From Clavulina sp. PMI_390 (Eukaryota; Basidiomycota; Agaricomycetes; Cantharellales; Hydnaceae), in assembly GCA_015039315.1 (NCBI GenBank), contig WIDE01000049.1, positions 13,439-77,438 on the forward strand: DNA of 64,000 nt, read 5' to 3'. The position numbers were made by a program, and so were the translations under genes. Shown here one piece after another: positions 7,372 to 19,124 of this stretch. The notes under the pieces were generated by a model. It did not search any database and had not been told where the DNA came from. It worked only from the letters and a program-made list of their open reading frames with translations. The number at the start of each line of letters is the position of its first letter. Position 1 is the first letter of the stretch.

Positions 7372-8338
7372 TTACTGCCAGATGGTCACATTCTTGATGA
7401 CCCAGTAGGCGTCTAGAGGAAAGACATTAAGATAGATGAGGACGGGACCGCAAGGTGAGAGAAAGGAAAGCGTACCGTCGTAGTTGCGCGGGTTAGCGAC
7501 CATGTCCGTGCATGCTCCAGGGCAACCATTACCCGTGTACGCATCCGTGGCCCATCCACCACACAGCGTCGTGTCGAACTATGATATTTTGATACGCCAA
7601 ATAGGTTAGCTTGAATCTCGAGCGCACAGCGATGGAAGAGGTTTAGACTTACGACGATGCTTTGGGAGGTGATGAGCGAGGTGGTGGGGCAGGACGAGTC
7701 GCTGGGGAGCATCCCCGTAGGCAGACCCCATCCGTCAGGCTTGGGTGCGTGGCCTGCCTTGACGTCCTGCGGGACGGCGTTCCTTGGCCATTGCCCTGCG
7801 GAGAAAGAAATCCAAGTATTGATATCAGAACCGGAGGAACAAGGGAGATGATAGACGTTACTCACAAACTTTGGCTCCAGCGCTATTCAAGAGGAGAGCA
7901 AAGACACCTCCACCAGCAGCATTGAACGGATCGCCGTACATGGCCTGCGCAGGGTCATTCGACGTGAAGAATCCACACCCTGCATCTGCTGTGGCGTTTG
8001 ATGCGCAGAGGGGGTCGCCACGGCCTGGGGAGGTAACCCAGTTGGAGGGGACGTTGGTCGTGTTGCAGGCTGAGGGGTAGCCGGTATGGAAGGTTACTTG
8101 GTTGTTCGTGCTGTAAAAATTTGATAGCGTTAACGCAGATGAGTATCATGTAGATCACGAAAGAGACGATCCGGTGGGATCGATACTTACATATTGTTGA
8201 CGCCCTGTTTACATTATGAGTGACCATCGGCATGGCTGGCGGTATGATTCAGAGGAAAAAGCTTACCTCGATGATGTCGATCTCTCCCTGATTAGGCCAA
8301 TTTGGCCCCACGGTCCACAGCGTATAATATGTTTGTAC
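7372..8338 (-). pseudogene. 3' half of split WSC-GH16 glucanase gene
   Basis: Six exons: 8267-8338, 8191-8204 (14-nt microexon), 7866-8110, 7653-7795, 7476-7578 and 7372-7412. They total 618 nt (205 aa plus stop), phases consistent. The first exon holds WTVGPNWPNQGEIDIIE, with the GH16 catalytic ExDxxE (EIDIIE: nucleophile Glu and acid/base Glu). The tail (QWPRNAVPQD, FDTTLCGGWATDAYTGNGCP, YWVIKNVTIWQ) is typical of basidiomycete GH16 laminarinase-type enzymes. There is no start codon, signal peptide or N-terminal beta-sheet here. They lie about 9.9 kb away at 18245-19124 on the same strand. The break is exactly at the 10-bp direct repeat bounding the insertion, so this half is probably not expressed as an enzyme. 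Confidence 0.9.
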
Positions 8339-8340
8339 CT
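8331..8340. repeat. 10-bp direct repeat, left flank of the insertion
   Basis: The sequence gtttgtacct is identical to 18137-18146 and bounds the 9.8-kb insertion. The bases on either side differ, so the match is exactly 10 bp. On the minus strand it reads AG|GTACAAAC, so it overlaps the splice acceptor and the first exon bases of the interrupted gene. Confidence 0.85.
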
Positions 8341-9928
8341 TTCCTTTTTAGGAAGGAGCTAAGCGCGGGGAATGGAGGAGTTTTGCACTTGCGTAATTCA
8401 TGTTCGTCAGCGTTCTCCTTGTGCAGAATCGCCCACTATCGAGCAATGGACAACTTCTCGACTGAGCTGCCCTGGACGTCGCATCTGTATTGTCCCAAGC
8501 TCGCACTTTCTCTCTAGGCTCGCCGCCGAGGTTTGAACCAGTAGGTAGGAGTACGAGAGACAGGGCCGGACATTGTTGCTGGGAGGAATTCGAGGGTCGT
8601 GGGCCGTGACTGTAGCGTGGAGTCACACACCGCTTTTGGGCTGACGGACTCGGCTCTGTCTTTCAACATTCACTCTCGGGATGTATCTCCTAGTTGCTTC
8701 TCCGTCTCCGTCCTACGCATTCCTTCTCCGTGGCCGCCCATCTGTTTCCCATTCCCTCAAGGAACGGTCATCCACGCGTCATTGCCGTCGTTGGACCAAT
8801 CCTAATATTGATGGGGCTCAGCTTTGGCTAAGTCGCACTTTCTCGTCCTTGTCTGCTGCATCTTTTCGGCTAGTACGAGCCTCATTGTGCATCTTGATGG
8901 ATTCAACCGCGCATACAACGTGAAGAAACGGTACGCTGCTCCCATCCCTCCGCTCGCTGCAGAAACTCTGATTGTCACAGCATTGCTAGATAATATCTCA
9001 GGGCAAGGAGTGGGAGACAGGTACCATACAACTCTTTCGACACCCTCAGAGATGAACTTGTGGTTTTCGATCAACGCGCGAACATGTCGTGTCCAATGTC
9101 CTTCCACATTCGAGCACCGACAGCTCCAATGCGACAACAACTGCTGGATCACCATGGAGGAAGTTCCGGTGAGCCTAGATCCCCTGGGAAACTCCAACCG
9201 CAGAAATCAACTCAGATGACAAGCCCCACGACACCCGCACGAATATAGATGCCCCCTCAAGTAAATAGCCTTTCCATGTCCTCGAGCGGCAGCTGTATAA
9301 GTAGTTATTTGCCACCGAACCTATGTAAAGCGCCTCGCGTTGGGGGCCGAGCGCAAACAGCGCCGGTCCATTATTACAGTCCTTCTCGCTGCACTGCTCC
9401 GTGGCTGGCTACGTGAACGAGACTTTTCCACATTCTTATTCATTTCTCCCGTTCTCTCTGTACTGCACGCGATTACACTCGTTCATACATCTTTCTCCAA
9501 TGCTAAGTAACAACATCTCAACAAATGTGGTGAGTGCTGCGACCTCCTGTTTCCTTTGAGGCAATGATGACGTCGCTGTGCTGGTTGATCGAGGCACCAA
9601 CCCGCCATCACGTCCACCGACTCACACCGTGGCGATTACATTTTAGAAAAAAAAAATCAGTATTTTGCATGTTGGTATACTCTCGTCCTGCTCTCAGCAA
9701 CAGCCACCCTCTGCGACATTCTGTGTTTGACCTCGATACCTCCACTTGCCTTATTTGGGCATACGTCTAGGGTTGCCTCCACGGGTATGGCCTGCCCTTT
9801 CTTATTTCGCAATTTTGGCATCGTTCATGCCGTTATTCTCCTATCATATCCCCTGGCTTCCGTCCACCGTGCGGCTTTGTTCTCTTTCTCACTTGAACCG
9901 AGTGATCCGCCATGGCGTGCACCATAGT
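8341..9928. other. Non-coding left part of the element
   Basis: No convincing gene. The very end has a short palindrome, TTCC-TTTTTA-GGAA, at 8341-8354. A 17-bp string (gctaagtcgcactttct) at 8827-8843 recurs at 10702-10718. The ORFs at 8802-9219 on both strands have no recognisable motif. This could be decayed cargo or the recombinase-distal end of the element. Confidence 0.5.
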
Positions 9929-9946
9929 TCTCGCTCATCCCCCACG
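9929..9946. repeat. 18-bp target-site duplication, 5' copy (LINE)
   Basis: The sequence tctcgctcatcccccacg is identical to 10577-10594 and brackets the LINE fragment. The length is typical of target-primed reverse transcription. Confidence 0.8.
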
Positions 9947-10576
9947 TCCGCATTCGCTGGACCCGCCAATGGGCCGCCCACGCTGCCACAACCAACCACC
10001 GCTCGGGCTTCCGAGCAGCCAACTCCATCCCTCCGTCCACCAAACCCTCCCATCGCCTGTGCTCCCTACGGCCCAAGATACTAGCGAGAGTCCTCCAATG
10101 CCGAACCGGCCATGCCTTCATTGGCAGCTACTACGACTACTTCAACATCCCCGAGCCCACCCAGTGCCCATGCGGCGCCTTCCAGACCCGCAACCACATC
10201 CTGCTCAACTGCCCCCGCTTCGACGACTTCCGTCCTATCCTAAAGGACAAAAAAGGACGAATCGACCTAGAAGACCTGCTCGGCACCTCAAAAGGGTGCA
10301 AGCGCCTCATTCGCTTCATCAAAATCACGCGTGCCTTCGACAAGACGGCGAGAACGTAAATCCATACTATATGCCCATGCCCCTCCCCTATACCTTCCCC
10401 CTACTATAACTTAACCCGCATACCACTCAAAGCACACCAGACCAGACGGCTCAGACTAGTCATATATAGACCCGATAGCGGTTAGCCTACAACCCATGTA
10501 ATAAACACTGTAGTATAGCTCCCGCCCTAGGCGCCAAGGTTGGCAGCCCGACGCGGTAAAACCGATTCTCTCTCTC
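9947..10576 (+). mobile_element. 5'-truncated non-LTR retrotransposon (LINE) copy
   Basis: From 9947 to a TAA at about 10360 runs an open frame without ATG. It ends in the C-terminal module of fungal LINE polymerases: a basic helix (RWTRQWAAHAA), RVLQCRTGHAFIGSYY, a Cys/His cluster (PCPCGAFQTRNHILLNCPRF style: CxCG...H...C) and LLGTSKGCKRLIRFIK. An in-frame stop just upstream and the 18-bp duplications at both sides show that the copy is truncated at its 5' end. A 3' UTR of about 215 bp follows. Known family: Tad1-type LINEs with a C-terminal RNase H or zinc knuckle. The copy lacks the reverse transcriptase, so it is dead on arrival. It lies inside the larger recombinase element, hence inserted there after the element's sequence existed. 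Confidence 0.85.
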
Positions 10577-10594
10577 TCTCGCTCATCCCCCACG
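10577..10594. repeat. 18-bp target-site duplication, 3' copy (LINE)
   Basis: Second copy of tctcgctcatcccccacg, directly after the 3' end of the LINE fragment and a short CT-dinucleotide run. Confidence 0.8.
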
Positions 10595-11484
10595 CCGAGT
10601 TTGAGTTACTTTCGTGTCGCTCCCGCAGGCCATCTAATAGTGGTCGCACTTGTACAGCTTGGGAACTCTTCCGCCTTTCCTTAACCAATGCCGGAAAATC
10701 CGCTAAGTCGCACTTTCTTGCTCCACGCCTACTCGCATTCCTGATATATGCGCACCTTTTGTCTCTCTCTCCAGCATCCGCGTATTTGCTCCGTTCTGCG
10801 TCCTTCTCCTTCCTTGGTCGTGTGGGGATACAGATCACTCGCCTACTTGGTGACTCTTGCCCGGTCGGGAGAGCCGTGTTGCGGGCCTGGACCCGAAAGA
10901 GCCGGGGTGGTGGAGGGAAGACACTGCCAAGCACTTGCAGCAAACAGCATGACTGAGACGACGGTCCTGTGCCTCAACGACCTCCAACATGAAGAAGGAT
11001 CGAATTACATTTCCATTCATACTTATCCGTATCTAGTGAACCATATATGTGGACCAAGAAGGGGATGATTGTGGAGCGAGAGGATGATTTGGGAGCCCAA
11101 GACAATTGCTAATAATACAGTAATGGCATTGATCGAGACGGTCAATGAGTTTTCGATCCCAAGGGAAAAAAAGGGAAACTTCTGCTATGAGGCACGGAAA
11201 GAACAAACAGTGGGTGATGAGTATAGGTGCAGGCAGTCTGACACGGCGATCTAACGCAAATGGGAAGCAAATGAGAGACTTCTTTCGAGGGAGTACTCTA
11301 AAATGACAAGATGCTCACTTACCACAGCTAACGAACTCTAGCGCAATCTCGGAATCCCTGATATGAGAATCTTGACTAGCCAATTTAGAACGAAGTGGTC
11401 AGTCGTCGACATTGGACATGGGTGTGTGGCGCGCCGCGAGCAAACGGGCGGGCGAACAAACGAACGAACGACTTACCACAATCC
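10595..11484. other. Non-coding stretch within the element
   Basis: This lies downstream of the Cys-rich gene stop and may hold its 3' UTR. Acttac(c) strings near 11320 and 11471 on the minus strand could be UTR introns. The ORFs here look like shadows. The 17-bp string shared with 8827 lies at 10702. Confidence 0.5.
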
Positions 11485-12658
11485 TCATTCAGGCAGGGCA
11501 GCTAATAACGCATTAGCGAACATTGTGTATCGCTTGAGCCTCTGCGTTTCAGCCCTAATTTCCACAACGTCATCGAGTGCTTTGAGCGTATCGTTTCGGT
11601 ATCGCGTGAGTGCCTGCTGCTGCCCAGTCGTCAGGCCATTGTACTCGGGTATGTTGTAAACAAGGCGTGGAGTCGCCTTCGATGCCGCGATCGCCGTATC
11701 GAGCTGAGCGATCTGCGCCTTGACTTCGCGCTCTTTGCGCTCAACCAACCGAGGGATCATCTTCGTCACAAACCCAACGCAGTCAGGTTCCACCATTTCA
11801 TCCACCTGACATGCAAGTCAGTTACATGTATCGCGCAGACACTCGTACGGGTGGAGCAGAGGAGGAAGAAAAAGCTTACCGGGCGGTTCTCGGCGTCTTC
11901 ATTTGCAGCAAGGCGAATCTTCGCGTTTTTCACTGAGATTTTATTTGCACATAACGGACAACACATGGTCCTGGTATCGGTGATTATCTGCCGATAACAG
12001 GGGTAGTATTCCCAGCATCTCCAGCAATATTTCCTCGTCAGTGCGTGGGGCGGCGGAGCCTTCCGGTTTACGCAGACGATGCATGCTGAGGTTCCATACC
12101 ATTTCTTGAAGTGCCCGATCTTTTGGCGCTTGCCAGGCGGATTGGGATTCAACCTCGTGATGAAGAATTCAGGGGGGTGTTTAACCCGGCATAGTGGACA
12201 AACACGAGGAGCCTTGCCAAGCCATAGGCTTTTACGCTCACGAAAACCTTCAATGATGTCGACTGGGGCAGGATGGTTGGAGAGGCAAATGGAGCAGCAT
12301 GCGGAGAGCACTGAGCAGGTACTGAGCGTTGAACCAGGCTTGGGCTCGTGAAAAGTGAGGGTGGCCGTGGGGAACGTTGCAACTGTTCCGCTGGCTCCAC
12401 AGATGACACATTGAGGTTTTTGTTCATCTGAGGTAGCCGTAATCACTACCGATTTTGGAACTGCTGGTCGAGGGGTAACTTACCTTGACGACAGTAGCTA
12501 CACCAGACGCTGTCTTCCTCGCCTGGGATGGGAATGCAGTCTTCGGCACTGACCTCGTAGTGACAGACCCAGCAGATGGAATGGCCAGATCGCACAACAC
12601 GATTCTGTTCAAGTACGATGCTTTCAACAGCGGCGAGACTTGGCGGAAGCTCAGACAT
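11485..12658 (-). CDS. Cys-rich putative zinc-binding protein (element cargo)
   Basis: Three exons: 12484-12658, 11880-12427 and 11485-11805. The total is 1044 nt (347 aa), phases consistent, start ATG at 12658. The protein carries a run of CxxC pairs: CWVC and CSYC (about residues 29-55), CVICG, CCSICLSNH, CPLCRVKHP, CIVCVNRK, CWRCWEYYPC and CCPLCA. This suggests several zinc-binding knuckles or a RING-like module. The last exon (about 107 aa) has heptad-like leucines (LVERKEREVKAQIAQLDTAI), probably a coiled coil. No family is recognised. It is the distal gene of the 9.8-kb insertion and diverges from the Lys-rich gene at 12803 across 144 bp. A DNA-binding or ubiquitin-ligase role is possible but not shown. 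Confidence 0.7.
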
Positions 12659-12802
12659 GGTGAACAGGGATGAGAGGGGGTGGAACGCGTGTTTGGTCCG
12701 ACGCGCAACTTGTTGTTTGGTCTCATCGAATACCCTCGTAGCTTTCACTTTTCGTCTTATTTCCACTTCCCACCCAAGCTTACTGCAATAAATGAGACTC
12801 GA
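12659..12802. promoter_or_regulatory. Divergent promoter between the two cargo genes
   Basis: Only 144 bp separate the start codons at 12658 (minus) and 12803 (plus). The two genes therefore probably share control sequences and may be co-expressed. I see no clear TATA box. Confidence 0.5.
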
Positions 12803-14283
12803 ATGCCTCGTCCAGCAAAAAAACCAACTATTCTAGTCTGGAAACCATCTGATTATGCATACGACGTGCCACCTCGCACGCGTCGATCAGCTACGCGTCG
12901 ATCAGCTACGCATCGATCAGCTGCAGGACCCAGCACTAGCGCGCAGATCTATCACTCGGACGAAGCAGAACATGGAAGAGAACTGGATGAGCTGGAGAAA
13001 GCTGCTGATGACGACAGTCAATACGAATCCTCCACCGACGAGTACCGGACCCCACCCCCCAAAAAGGTCTGAGTGCATCAGTTTTACTTATCGACTTCTA
13101 CGCTTGACGCAATCCTGGTCACAGAGGAAGCGTGGCAGCATGGAATCAGACGAATCGGACAGCGAAGAGGACGAGGACGCTAGCATACGCACCAATGTTA
13201 TTCTCCGCGGCGCCCTCTTCATGTTCATACACTGATGCGCTACCACCCTCGCAGAAAGAGAAAACCCACCCCAAAAAGAAGAAGCTTACTCTTGAATTGT
13301 CTCAAAAGCGCAAACGCAATACTGCCGCTCATCATCAAGAACTTTCAGATGACGAGACGTCGGGGACTGATATCGGGTTGCGTGCAATCTAGACTTGCAT
13401 CACCTTTCCTTGTTCTCAACTCTTTTATAGCCTCATCAGAAACCTAAAGCCTCAAAGAAGAAATCAGCTGGACCGCCATCAAAAAAACGCAAGCGCAGTG
13501 CTGCCACCAATGAAGAAGAACTCGCCGACGACGAGGTGTCAGGAACAGATGGACTTGCGGTCAGTATCTCTCAACAAATATTCGACTTTGTTATTCACTT
13601 GACGGCCTCTATAGGATACTACTTTGGTTGAAGAGGACACGTCAATGCCGGGGAAGAGGAAATCGACAAAGAACCCGAAGGGCAAGGGCAAGGCGAAAGT
13701 GACGAAGACTGAGAACGCCAAATTTCCCCCTCCTGCCTCGCTGCGTGAGCACGGTCGTATTGTCTTGAAGGTCGGCCAGTGATCTTGTCTCTGGAGTCTT
13801 AACGGTCATCTCCCTCATTCGCGTCTCTCTCTCTCTCGCATCCAGGATCGAACGGAGAATCACTACCAAAACCTTGTTGATGCCCTACCCTCACTACTTG
13901 AACGCCTCACCGTCAGTGACACTCTAACCGAAGAGCTGGCTCGCCGCCAGGAAGAACTCCATGAACTTGAAATCCAAACTACTAGCGACCATACTCTCGT
14001 CCAAAAACTCTGCGAAATTGTACAGATCGACCGTACCTCTCGTCAACGAAATGCTTATGAAACCTTCATCGAAACCGCAACTGACAACTTGATCGCTATT
14101 CAAGAACGCAAGGCTGCTCGCAATGAATACGATGATGCTGAAGAACAACTCGAAAAGGCTGGGATTCGCGTTGGGACCGTGTTTGAGGAATGGTGTGACT
14201 CGATTGATCCAGATCGCTTCATTCACGACAACGTGTATCGAAGCGAAACCATCGCAAAGGGGCTCGCTGTGTTGGAGGACTGA
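12803..14283 (+). CDS. Lys-rich, acidic and coiled-coil nuclear-type protein (element cargo)
   Basis: Likely six exons: 12803-13066, 13125-13196, 13255-~13377, 13440-13559, 13615-13770 and 13846-14283. The N-terminus has short repeats of an RRSAT unit. Exons 3 and 4 encode two related segments (KKKKLTLELSQKRKR...DDETSGTD and KKKSAGPPSKKRKR...DDEVSGTD), each with a nuclear-localisation-like basic cluster. Exon 5 is Lys-rich (GKRKSTKNPKGKGKAK). The last 145 residues are charged and probably helical (LERLTVSDTLTEELARRQEE...). No family is recognised. The donor of exon 3 does not fit a simple GT site in phase 0, so that joint is unresolved or broken. The gene is convergent with the recombinase-like gene. 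It may be an accessory factor of the element or passenger cargo. Confidence 0.6.
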
Positions 14284-14461
14284 AACCGCTTATAGCTTCT
14301 CTCAATATTACACGAACAGCTCGGCCACGCCGAGTCTAGAACAGACCTGTAGACGATGTTTCATTCATTCATTATGACTACTGGGCGCAATCAATGTACA
14401 CCATTCACACGTCTTCAAGATGTACAGCGACGAGGCCGTCAATAAGCGATCCGATTTGGCC

Positions 14462-17400
14462 CTATGAAGATTTCCAAACATGATTCATTGAGTATGTATT
14501 AGTCATAAAAAGAAAGTGGCTCACTGTGAGAGGTGAGAGGGCGGGATCAGCTTGGGCGTCGCCGAGTAACTGTCGAGTAAGTATGTTGTGCAAGTGATCC
14601 GACCGCCTCACTTTGAGCTCGTCAGGTGTAGGGATAGTAGCCTGGCGTGCAGCTGAAAGGATCGGACCTTCTGCCTCGTTACTCATGGCTCCAAAATGAT
14701 CTCTGGCAGTACATTCGCCAATGCAGTGGGCCCTAGTGGATGCTATTGACGTAAACCTAGCCAATGTACAGTTAGATAGCCTAATTCCGCAGATGATAAG
14801 CATTCAACGTACAACTCGCCGCATGCAGGACAGGCAAAGACACCAGGTTCTGTCGTGAGCATCTTAAGTTCGAGATCATGCCATTCAGAGTGAAGTCTCC
14901 TGAGAAGGATTGTACCAATAGGATTAAGATGCAATCGGAATCACTCTCAAACTGATGAACGTACATGTGCCTGGTACAGTCACGCCAATTGTCGTGGATA
15001 CGGTCCGCGGCGGACTCGCTTTCTCCAGGAAGAATATGCGTGAAATGGATGCATAGAGGGCATCGGTGTCCCAGTTCCTATGAAACAAGATACATCAAAA
15101 GCACTTTCAGGCCATCAGAATACGTCATTGTACCATCCATTTGGGCCATAATAACTCGAGTTCGGCGCTATACTCGATGCCGACTGTCTCAAACATGGTG
15201 TGCATGATGTACATGATGACACTGTGGCGTTGAGTGCGAAGTTTTGCGCGTTCTTCAGGGGTGGCCGCGGTGCCTTTCGAAACAGCTGGTCGGACGCTTT
15301 CAACATTCTCAGTCGAACTATACACAATATTCTTGAAAGCATCTTGCGTTATTGCTGCTAAGCTGGAGTGAGTGACACGGATGAGCATATCGAATAGAAT
15401 AACTGACAGGGTGAGTCTTGTCGAGGCTTGTCACGTTCACCACGTCGAGCTTTGACGGCCTTGTCCATCCCATGCATTCGGCGAGCAAATACAATGGCGT
15501 CGCGATCTAGTTGCCTGAAATTGTCCTCACCAGGCTCGCCTTCCATTGACTCTTCATCGTCATCGTCAAAAAGTTCACCCTCATCATCCTGAGCCTCGAA
15601 AGGCGCCGCCGGGATCAGTCGGGAGGTCATTCGACCACGATTCTTCATGATTTGTTTGGCCTCTTCCACATCCGCTGGGGAAACCTTGTGAAGATCAAGG
15701 GAGGTAGTTGGGCCACGGCGCTTTTTGGTTGGCTGGACAAGATAATCAGACCCCAAGGCGAGTCGAAGGGAATGGGTAGAAACGTCACCTTGTCATCGAG
15801 TGTCTCTCCCCGGTCCCTCGCCTCCTGCATGTCCCGAATCAATACTTCAAGGGCTGGCGTGATCCTATCTTGCACACGCTTAATTGCATTCTACGAGCAT
15901 ACATGATAGGTTTTCTTGTCAGTTATCCAAACAGAGCATATTTACGAACCTTTGTGTTTTCTGTGCCGAACCTCGGGTTGTCTGCTAATCCGCTCTGGCC
16001 AAGCCGAATGTCGACCACGTTGCTCCTCTCCCAGACCGGAGCATAATACTGGTCAATGACCGCAAAAACCTTGTGATTCATCAACAGCGAGACATCGTGT
16101 CCATCCACGCCACTCTCTTTCCACTAGAATGTCGTTCACGTTAGAATAATTTGGAGATTGGATAAATTTCTGCTTACGTGTCGCGCCGTTGCTCGCCGAA
16201 TTGCGGTCCAGGGTAGGGGCCGAAGACCTGCGAGTTTGCACAGATTGCGGAGGGCTGCACTGAGTGTCCAATGATCCGCCGGTTCAGTGGGCACAAAGTT
16301 TCTTTTAGGGCCGTCTCGACCGTTGTGCCCCTTGAGGAACCTATCCAGATATTGGGGTTAGATCAGGTTAATGTATAATCCGCGGCAGACATACACGGCT
16401 TTATCAAGATATTCGTCCTTGATCTTAAGACGGACACACGAGTCATCGTCAATGAGCTCGCCAATGGTCTGTTACAAATATCAGTGGCCAGTCTGCTTCA
16501 ACTTGGCGACATCACTAACCGAGTATTTTTCAAAAATACCCCGGCTGAACCCAAGGCAGACATACCACAACGAGGGATCAAATAGAAGATCCTCTGCGCA
16601 TTCCACTGGGTCGAATTGGGTCGTCACTTCCATTGATTCATCGTTTTCATGTCCCTAGAGGAGAGGATTTTAACAATAGAGGGGGCAATAGACAAGGTAG
16701 CATACCTTGAATGCACGAATCGTGATGCGAGTAGTAAACGAACCATCAGCATTTCTCAAAAACTCGACATCACGCCAGCACATCATCTATGAATCGGACT
16801 AGTAAGCGTTGATATTATCTCCAGCACAGAGTTGACATACTTCACTGATTTTACGCGATTCATCGTGTGTCCCTACCAAGCTTGAAGGGCGAAAGGCTGC
16901 AAAGAATGAAGACAGGAGAGCGGCAATGATTTGTGTGTAGTGTGCTCGAGAAGAAACTTTCGAGAGGGTCATGCCAGCTACCATGAGTAAATCGAGTTCT
17001 GGAGCGTCCAGTCGCTCTTGTTTCTCAGCACCGCGAGGCTTGCGTAGTTTGAATTGACGAACAACTGAAGCAAGATAATACATGAGCAACAGCACGCAAC
17101 CATATTCTGTCATTTTGTGAGAAAGAGACATACGAGTGTGGACGCGCTTGCGCAATGAAAACCTCATCTTCGCCCAGAGTCGTGCTCCCACCGTCGTGTC
17201 ATTCACGTTCTTGGGATCATACGCGAATGAAATGACGTTGGACATATGAGCATCAAGCCAAGAATACACCGTACGTGACAACACACGTTCCTCGGGGGAA
17301 ACGTGGATGCCATGCTTGATAAAGATTGACTCGCATAGAGCATCTTCATCTTCAATTTCCTGCTGGGACCTGGGATGCAGAATATCATTGAGTAGCTCCT

Positions 17401-17908
17401 GCTCATCCACACCCTCAAGATCGTCGTTGTCTTCTACTAGGTCATTTTCATCTTCTGGATCATCAGGTGCATCTTCGACAGCGTCAGAAGGCGCTGGTCT
17501 GGGTCCGCCCCCTTTACGTTTACCAACGGATATGCGCCAGGCCATATATGGGCCGCTCCACTTCTCAATAATGTCTTTGTCCCATGCTTGTTCAGAGGAA
17601 GTATTAGGGGGCAATATCTTGAACATCCCGATGAACAATAACCACTGTTCTCGACTGGTTTGTAAGACTCTATCGGAGTTCGGGTTTGTGTAAGCGGGAA
17701 GCTTTTCCATGAAATTAGCAATGGCGTCGCGTTGGGCTTCCGTGTATGTGGATAGTCCTCCGTTCAGTGCAATAGCACGCTGGCCCAAGGGGTTCTTGGT
17801 TGTTGACTCGTTCACTTGGGCTATTGTCATCTGTCGCTCTAAGATTTGACGTTCGGCATTGGTCAATTTCTTAGGTTTTTGTTTCTTGGCTGGCTTGGAA
17901 TGCGACAT
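14462..17908 (-). CDS. Tyrosine-recombinase-like protein, first gene of the element
   Basis: Thirteen exons: 16841-17908, 16706-16786, 16520-16654, 16395-16468, 16178-16340, 15950-16123, 15789-15890, 15408-15732, 15134-15357, 14965-15077, 14813-14899, 14612-14780 and 14462-14569. The total is 2823 nt (940 aa), every junction in phase. The start at 17908 is the first ATG. Features that suggest a tyrosine recombinase, as in Cryptons or DUF3435 captains: AFRPSSLVGT (candidate first catalytic Arg, about R340); LRNLCKLAGLRPLPWTAIRR (box II, Arg about 501/502, without the classic HxxR His); and HDVSLLMNHKVFAVIDQYYA (His about 524, candidate nucleophile Tyr 533/534). An acidic linker lies near residues 140-185. 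The C-terminal part has CPLCIHF, CPACGEL and a C..H..C group, perhaps zinc-binding. It starts 228 bp from the element end and reads inward. The family call is by motif only, and the last 42-nt intron could be exonic. Confidence 0.72.
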
Positions 17909-18136
17909 GATGCTAGACTTGGGGTAAATGTTGTTTGCGCTGACGAATCAAAAGGGATAGGCGCGCGGCAGCAATACATGGGCAACCAACAATCAATACT
18001 GGCTCTCCATCCTCCTTGCCTGTGGTCGCCATCAAGGACACTTTTGCAGAAGAGCTATTGACCGATGTCCCTTCTCTCTCATGCTCATTGGAGGGAGTAT
18101 TAACATTGCAAACATTAATGATAAAGATGTATGTTG
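17909..18136 (-). promoter_or_regulatory. Recombinase-side end of the element
   Basis: 228 bp between the element boundary and the recombinase start codon must hold its promoter. At 18099-18119 the string ATTAACATTGCAAACATTAAT contains both an inverted repeat (ATTAA/TTAAT) and two ACATT direct copies. Such a site, about 20 bp from the end, could be a recombinase-binding sequence; this is inference. Confidence 0.45.
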
Positions 18137-18146
18137 GTTTGTACCT
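18137..18146. repeat. 10-bp direct repeat, right flank of the insertion
   Basis: The sequence gtttgtacct matches 8331-8340. Next to it on the minus strand lie the intact end of the host-gene intron and its AG acceptor. Confidence 0.85.
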
Positions 18147-18244
18147 ATTGGTCGAAAAGGGATACTATAAACCTGTATTTAGCAACGAGAAACGTCCGTG
18201 CTTTGGGTCAGACTAGCATGAGAAAGTCGGCTGTTAAGACGTAC

Positions 18245-19124
18245 CGAGCAACCCCACGGCATATGGATTATGTCAAAGATCATCAACGCCGTAGTGTACG
18301 TCGCCGAAGTCGAGATGCGCACGCTATTGCGGTTCGCTCCAGCGGCCAACGTAGACGTATTGTCGACCTTGAGAACGACAGTGCCGTCTGACTGGATATA
18401 CGCGAGCTTATCCGAAGTTGCCGTGCTTTTTGACACATACTCGACGTTGCCATTAGTAGGGTCACCGCCTGTGAAGAAGTTCCAGCCCGTGAAGAACGAG
18501 GACCCGGCGTGGATGGTCGCCTTGCTATAGGGAGATGCAGAGAGCGTGCGGTTGTACAAGGTGAGAGCCCAGGTGCCTCCACACGTCGTAGAGTTGGTGG
18601 AGTCTCCTACGCAAGGAACCGTGCAGTCGGAGGCGGGCAAAGTCGCACCAGCACCGGCAGCGGTGTCAAGAGAGTTGCCACACCAGCATTCCTCGCCGAA
18701 CTGGACACCAGCATAGGTGAATCCGTGGAAGGCACAACTACATGATCGAACAAAGAGCAGGGACGATCAGCGGAAAAATTTGGCGGTAATCACGCAGAGA
18801 CCTGACAGGAAAGATACTCAACTCGTTCAAGCAGGAGTTGATCGTCATGCCCGCTGGATTCTCGGACCACGAAAGCAAACGGCCTGGATCGGGAGCATCG
18901 CTGACGCAGCTCGCGCCAAGCTTCCAACCGCTAGGCAACGCGGTAGCAGCGGTAGCTCTTGGCGAAGGACCCAAGGGATTGGATCGTTTGTGAAGCCGAG
19001 CGCGAGCAGGAGCAGGGCGAACGTCAAAGTCACCAGAAAGAGTAGCGGTGGTATAGGGGAGCAAGCCCAGGGAAGAGGGCAATAGCAAAAAGAAAGACGA
19101 AAGGGCAAGCTTATTAGAGAGCAT
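18245..19124 (-). pseudogene. 5' half of split WSC-GH16 glucanase gene
   Basis: Two exons: 18823-19124 and 18245-18737 (795 nt, 265 codons). The start at 19124 is followed by a signal peptide (MLSNKLALSSFFLLLPSSLG). A WSC carbohydrate-binding domain follows at about residues 65-155 (GWKLGASCVSD, CAFHGFTYAGVQFGEECWCG, CTVPCVGDSTNSTTCGG). Then comes the GH16 N-terminal sheet (SSFFTGWNFFTGGDPTNGNVEYV, RNSVRISTSATYTTALMIFDIIHMPWGC). It stops at a GTACGT donor (18244) after HMPWGCS, just before the residues that start the other half. The combined gene would encode a 470-aa secreted, wall-active beta-glucanase. As it stands, the transcript runs into the inserted element. Whether a truncated WSC protein is made is unknown. 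Confidence 0.9.

Follow-up and report, generated by a model that had tools for sequence, protein, structure and literature searches.

What has divided a glucanase gene in the genome of Clavulina sp. PMI_390, a member of a genus placed in Basidiomycota, Cantharellales, Hydnaceae? The gene, which couples a WSC domain to a GH16 fold, lies in a 64,000-nucleotide stretch of DNA (hereafter the window) that is part of contig C246 (235,556 bp) in a 39.4-Mb assembly, and its two pieces stand on either side of almost 10 kb of other DNA. The inserted DNA is probably a compact DNA transposon that is mobilised by a tyrosine recombinase of its own and consists of the recombinase gene, a gene for a basic protein, a gene for a cysteine-rich protein and a variable third. 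It would be Starship- and Crypton-like in its working. Membership in either group is not claimed, because the DUF3435 match falls below cutoff and is missing from a second copy on C191, no terminal inverted repeat (TIR) was found, the insert is shorter than 15 kb, and GCR1_C is unmatched.

The two pieces of the host gene are as follows.

18245 to 19124, minus strand: 5' part of the WSC-GH16 gene, with signal peptide, WSC domain and N-terminal part of the GH16 fold, ending in ...HMPWGCS
7372 to 8320, minus strand: 3' part of the WSC-GH16 gene, from LWTVGPNWP (with the catalytic EIDIIE) to the stop codon

An earlier note on this DNA had described two intact halves on the same strand with no overlap of content, and this description holds. 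The 5' part runs from an ATG at 19124 to HMPWGCS at 18245 and encodes 265 residues in two exons and one intron, free of stops and frameshifts, while the 3' part (8320 to 7372, ending ...WQ and stop) encodes 199 residues in six exons with five GT-AG introns and no premature stop. The WSC domain is matched in Pfam (E 2.9e-09); the insert separates it and the beginning of the fold from the catalytic residues. For the GH16 fold, neither half nor the joined protein has a Pfam match at E up to 0.01. Residues 11-303 of the joined protein align nearly end to end with the laminarinase 2CL2 (HMMER, E 2.6e-53), which places the host gene in the same family as this enzyme and the basidiomycete WSC-GH16 proteins. 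It differs from them at the seam between the halves, which lacks a conserved WPA and is two residues longer.

The idea of a single gene would have been in difficulty had the halves been closest to different paralogues, as the earlier note pointed out. Both have the same best match in their own genome, the C81 paralogue, with the contig itself excluded. Comparison with homologues (120 listed of 1811 matches in a protein library) gave a similar picture. P0063, a protein from a 1,808-bp metagenome contig, is uncut across the seam, with four residues between its matches to the two parts. It is the best of 119 listed homologues (own model excluded) both for residues 51-265 of the 5' part (215 residues, 73.5%) and, within the 3' part, for its first 47 residues (74.5%). 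The whole 3' part has as its top match among the listed homologues P0069 (56%), a 177-residue fragment, rather than P0063, because the latter departs from the family pattern after about residue 325. Sequence comparison thus supports a single gene that was later interrupted by an insertion lying between two copies of a 10-bp direct repeat.

The block that interrupts the gene is delimited by the following features.

18137 to 18146, no strand: recombinase-side copy of the direct repeat GTTTGTACCT, exact over 10 bp
8331 to 8340, no strand: far copy of the direct repeat GTTTGTACCT, exact over 10 bp
8341 to 18136, minus strand (orientation taken from the recombinase gene): insert between the repeats, 9,796 bp

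The 10-mer is identical at both block edges, as had been noticed before. A common 10-mer appeared by chance in 0.63% of 20,000 shuffles and in 0.71% of 20,000 pairs of genuine stretches drawn at random, the test using stretches of 70 x 140 bases whose sizes were picked once the repeat was known. GTTTGTACCT is an ordinary word of this genome, found at 49 places in 39.4 Mb with both window copies counted. If the repeats are the ends, the insert has no TIR, the local score being no better than that of shuffles. Joining the halves through one repeat copy gives a 100-nt GT-AG intron and an in-phase exon, and the earlier arithmetic is correct.

The seam produced by this join has an unexpected sequence. 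The joined protein reads HMPWGCS-VQTYYT-LWTVG, whereas P0063 reads HMPWGCS-VWPA-IWTVG and the C81 protein (P0012) MPYGCS-VWPA-MWTVG. The HMMER alignment has a two-residue insertion exactly at VQTYYT, where the family has (V/T)WPA. WPA is present at the seam in 109 of the 120 listed homologues, 106 of them recognised by the pattern GC-x-x-WPA and three with small variation (P0040, P0075 and P0100) read off. The remaining 11 consist of the gene's own model, the P0069 fragment, which lacks the region, eight Ceratobasidiaceae models with GCS(V/A)T(F/Y)W or GSGQATYW, and P0037 (Ceratobasidium), which has a longer odd stretch. A pattern search found no VWPA-coding stretch or micro-exon at the two edges of the insert. 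Since the join has six other residues instead of VWPA, the repeat does not fix the ends to the base, contrary to what had been proposed, and recovery of the pre-insertion sequence by removing the block and one repeat is not supported by the residues at the seam. The view that the host gene was formerly whole is supported by P0063, which runs uncut across the seam; the view that one repeat copy restores that gene is not, since the join yields VQTYYT for VWPA.

This leaves the true ends of the insert uncertain, by as much as about 110 bp next to the recombinase gene and by about 10 bp at the far side. A 5-bp end, GGTAC at 18245 and 8339, is a possible alternative and gives the same protein at the seam. 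The loss of VWPA would reflect either small deletions that struck the splice edges during the insertion or later, or else true ends that differ from the repeat. The C81 exon is ten bases longer before the same GTACGTC donor, which suggests that an old intron received the insertion and that sequence was lost at its edges. The public gene model DL93DRAFT_2043787 (P0001), which is partial, unites both halves and reads GCS-VRK-VQTYYT. Despite the recombinase gene within, it apparently takes the block for a single intron, about 9.9 kb long, and so offers a case of a public gene model reading through a whole putative transposon as an intron.

Irregular seams also occur in other fungi. WPA is lost or garbled in nine Ceratobasidiaceae GH16 models (P0008, P0009, P0010, P0015, P0016, P0017, P0020, P0029 and P0037). 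These deviations point to an intron that gene models handle badly here, probably through mis-annotated intron edges or a micro-exon.

The gene that would mobilise the insert is found at one of its edges.

14400 to 17908, minus strand: likely tyrosine-recombinase gene with 13 or more exons, about 905 residues; low end approximate

Its exon model ends at 14462 and its introns are of the GT-AG type, 41-69 nt long. The gene is the first at the edge and reads inward, its ATG lying 228 bp inside the repeat. The product is likely a tyrosine recombinase, judging by putative catalytic residues that occur in the order R317, K360, (T475), R478, H501 and Y510, all six identical in the C191 copy. The spacing of T475-R478-H501-Y510 (+3, +23, +9) equals that of Cre H289-R292-W315-Y324, and the 35 residues from T475 to Y510 equal the distance Y381-Y416 in the Starship captain HhpA (Cre and HhpA numbering as given in PMC12506042). 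The box-II histidine position is occupied by T here and by Y in the captain of the Starship Sanctuary (PMC12506042). The C-terminus is a CxxC/H-rich stretch. DUF3435 (PF11917) is matched with 25.2 bits (E 9.6e-06) by an early model and 23.8 bits (E 2.7e-05) by a later one. Phage_integrase is matched at E 0.004 and 0.007 by the models and at 0.0011 by the 252-residue domain alone (17.4, 16.5 and 19.2 bits; cutoff 27.1), so that no recombinase profile scores above its cutoff. The two profiles cover overlapping stretches of the protein, and a PHROG integrase family is matched at E 0.011. A DUF3435 family search of the genome returned no match anywhere, 14 control genomes included, and is uninformative.

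The rest of the insert holds two further genes and a far portion.

12803 to 14283, plus strand: companion gene 1, in convergent orientation to the recombinase gene, with a basic N-terminus and without a known family; exon joins provisional
11485 to 12658, minus strand: companion gene 2, rich in cysteines (repeated CxxC) and without a known family; exon joins provisional
8341 to 11484, no strand: variable far third of the insert, absent from the C191 copy; no gene recognised

The recombinase gene and its two companions recur at C191:45591-52230 in the same order and orientation. C191:45591 onward is the only other recombinase locus found by translated and DNA searches of the genome, the locus counts from these searches being lower bounds. 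The two recombinases are 56% identical. Companion gene 1 is conserved at 49% over 143 residues and 56% over 68, and companion gene 2 at 50% over 60 residues and, with E 8e-75, at 38% over 287 columns; the companion models scanned (for gene 1, the C-terminal exon) gave no Pfam match above cutoff. Pieces common to the insert and C191:36001-65800 stop at about 11477 of the window (blastn), and none of 44 GH16 matches lies on C191. The recombinase pair has a non-synonymous divergence (dN) of 0.33, a synonymous divergence (dS) of 2.4 and a dN/dS of 0.136 over 893 codons, rough values with dS near saturation; companion gene 1 has a dN/dS of 0.44 over its final 143 codons. By this codon comparison the recombinase is under purifying selection, and such selection together with a three-gene unit at two unrelated places is easier to reconcile with a transposon family than with a chance duplication. 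The C191 recombinase is unmatched in the Pfam recombinase families despite its 56% identity to the window protein, itself a weak match.

Alternatively, the block might not move by itself: a chromosomal block of three genes could have arrived by duplication, rearrangement or an assembly join and broken the GH16 gene on the way. Two diverged loci and no more were found, no empty site of the same species was seen, the VWPA codons were lost at the seam as a messy break would lose them, and P0001 connects the halves by handling the block like an intron. Against this account stand the direct 10-bp repeat and the recombinase gene at the edge; moreover, C191 has no GH16 match, and the unit common to both loci is the three genes alone. 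A non-mobile origin appears distinctly unlikely.

Several observations weigh against a transposon with its own recombinase, and they concern both the enzyme and the element. For the enzyme, the DUF3435 scores of 25.2 and 23.8 bits are below the curated Pfam cutoff of 25.8, and DUF3435 is not matched by the 252-residue domain on its own, with E values allowed up to 10. Pfam finds neither DUF3435 nor Phage_integrase in the C191 recombinase; of the two recombinases, one matches the PHROG integrase family and neither matches NCBIfam. No solved recombinase was matched by sequence, and a structure model of the first exon was useless (mean predicted local distance difference test score, pLDDT, 41.9), the catalytic domain being spread over several exons. 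The protein library, which includes Clavulina and Rhizoctonia proteins, yielded no relative of the recombinase by whole protein or by exon 1 among the 7,991 candidates with the most words in common and 282 candidates whose length resembled that of an exon.

For the element, the two loci found in the genome are few for a transposon family. The empty site that the earlier note had hoped for was not seen in the species' own assembly, where the best other GH16 locus is 45-54% identical. A single repeat copy does not restore the host gene, and a transposon does not explain the loss of the VWPA codons. The termini of the C191 copy were not found, the longest words common to its flanks being 12 bases or less. 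AGGTACG occurs on C191 at 45144, 54536 and 56190, about the number expected by an estimate of chance. The recombinase-side leader of the window insert has no occurrence elsewhere in the genome, and its far end has one 72% match, to an inner stretch, on C247.

With these points counted, a compact transposon moved by its own tyrosine recombinase is still the probable explanation of the insert. The recombinase would bind short direct repeats, cut, and join through its tyrosine, releasing the element as a circle that carries one repeat copy. The circle would then recombine into a short matching site and leave a repeat on each side, a route for which TIRs are unneeded; the landing site here would be the intron/exon seam of the WSC-GH16 glucanase gene. 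By analogy with Starships and Cryptons, excision and integration at short direct repeats is the most likely mechanism, and we infer mobility, the circular intermediate and the roles of the companion proteins. Recombinase-driven movement at short direct repeats is reported for Starships and proposed for Cryptons (PMC12506042, PMC12134995, PMC3212892), and according to PMC12506042 no circular intermediate has so far been reported for Starships either. The mobile element of the earlier note is retained in the form of a later insertion with a likely tyrosine-recombinase gene and two companions that recur on C191, a content which that note had not identified, but not with ends set by the repeat.

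Starships are described from Pezizomycotina (PMC12134995, PMC12257634), and among the sources consulted a single one reports them from a basidiomycete, with eight of 42-606 kb in Tremella fuciformis (PMC13066641). In Sanctuary, the captain encodes 786 residues and lies about 350 bp from the repeat (PMC12506042). The insert resembles such elements in its edge recombinase reading inward, its short direct repeats and its variable far part. The recombinase domain lies in the middle of a long protein in both (about 905 residues here, 786 in Sanctuary), and the distance to the repeat is 228 bp as against about 350 bp. The insert could accordingly be a true Starship, small or degraded, with a DUF3435 captain at its 5' edge and the companions as cargo or accessory genes. 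The captain-like place and orientation of the recombinase gene, its similarity to DUF3435 and the Tremella elements are in keeping with this, as is the 10-bp repeat, which falls inside the 2-12 bp range published for Starships (PMC12153272). Of 20 curated Starships 18 have a TIR, and a floor of 15 kb is used for Starships (PMC12153272), whereas the insert has no TIR and measures 9.8 kb against 15-700 kb. Its DUF3435 match is below cutoff and missing from the C191 copy and the domain alone, it has its own companion genes, and its host belongs to Agaricomycetes. The usual Starship genes for NLR, patatin, ferric reductase and DUF3723 (PMC12506042) were not seen in the Pfam scan of the tested companion models. 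The Tremella elements share a basidiomycete host and a leading recombinase with the insert and differ in size (42-606 kb) and in having been found with captain models (PMC13066641). A true Starship is unlikely.

Cryptons are a second possible affiliation. They occur in Basidiomycota, have no TIRs, have direct repeats of 4-6 bp, and in the fungal CryptonF carry GCR1_C beside the recombinase, according to PMC3212892. The insert is like CryptonF in its tyrosine recombinase, its lack of TIRs, its short terminal direct repeats and its occurrence in a basidiomycete, and might be a Crypton-type element that has gained two genes. It departs from CryptonF in its three genes, the two companions being conserved, in a 10-bp repeat where 4-6 bp are described (PMC3212892), and in the CxxC/H-rich tail of its recombinase. 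GCR1_C is unmatched in either recombinase copy at E up to 1, and the weak match that does exist points to DUF3435. A Crypton origin is very unlikely.

Starships have been reported in Tremella fuciformis, so that elements led by a recombinase are in themselves no novelty in basidiomycetes. It is possible, if somewhat short of probable, that the putative recombinase transposon described here stands for an undescribed superfamily of compact three-gene elements in Agaricomycetes, placed between Cryptons and Starships, in which the basic and cysteine-rich partners would be machinery and not cargo. The compact three-gene form is not named in the titles and abstract starts listed from the open-access literature, among them 20 of 78 papers in one listing and 15 of 3,249 in another. 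A small recombinase-led element with conserved companions in Cantharellales would suggest a simpler ancestor or cousin, and its size would allow a transposition test of the complete element in yeast.

The variable third of the insert contains a further piece of foreign appearance.

9947 to 10576, plus strand: truncated retroelement-like fragment nested in the insert, with 18-bp flanking repeats

The fragment is flanked by perfect copies of TCTCGCTCATCCCCCACG at 9929-9946 and 10577-10594. Window positions 8341-14500 have 35 non-self matches in the genome, of which 32 fall on the fragment, one of them 89% over about 570 bases, and C247 holds a fragment-free relative of the stretch that bears it. 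The fragment has no Pfam match; from its CPCG...H...CP motif we take it to be retroelement-like. The first exon of companion gene 1 contains three tandem 15-bp units, ACGCGTCGATCAGCT, at 12878-12922. No tRNA genes and no Rfam matches at gathering score were found in the window. Its other genes include NOL10-like and Rpb2-like neighbours, and the locus therefore looks like ordinary core chromosome.

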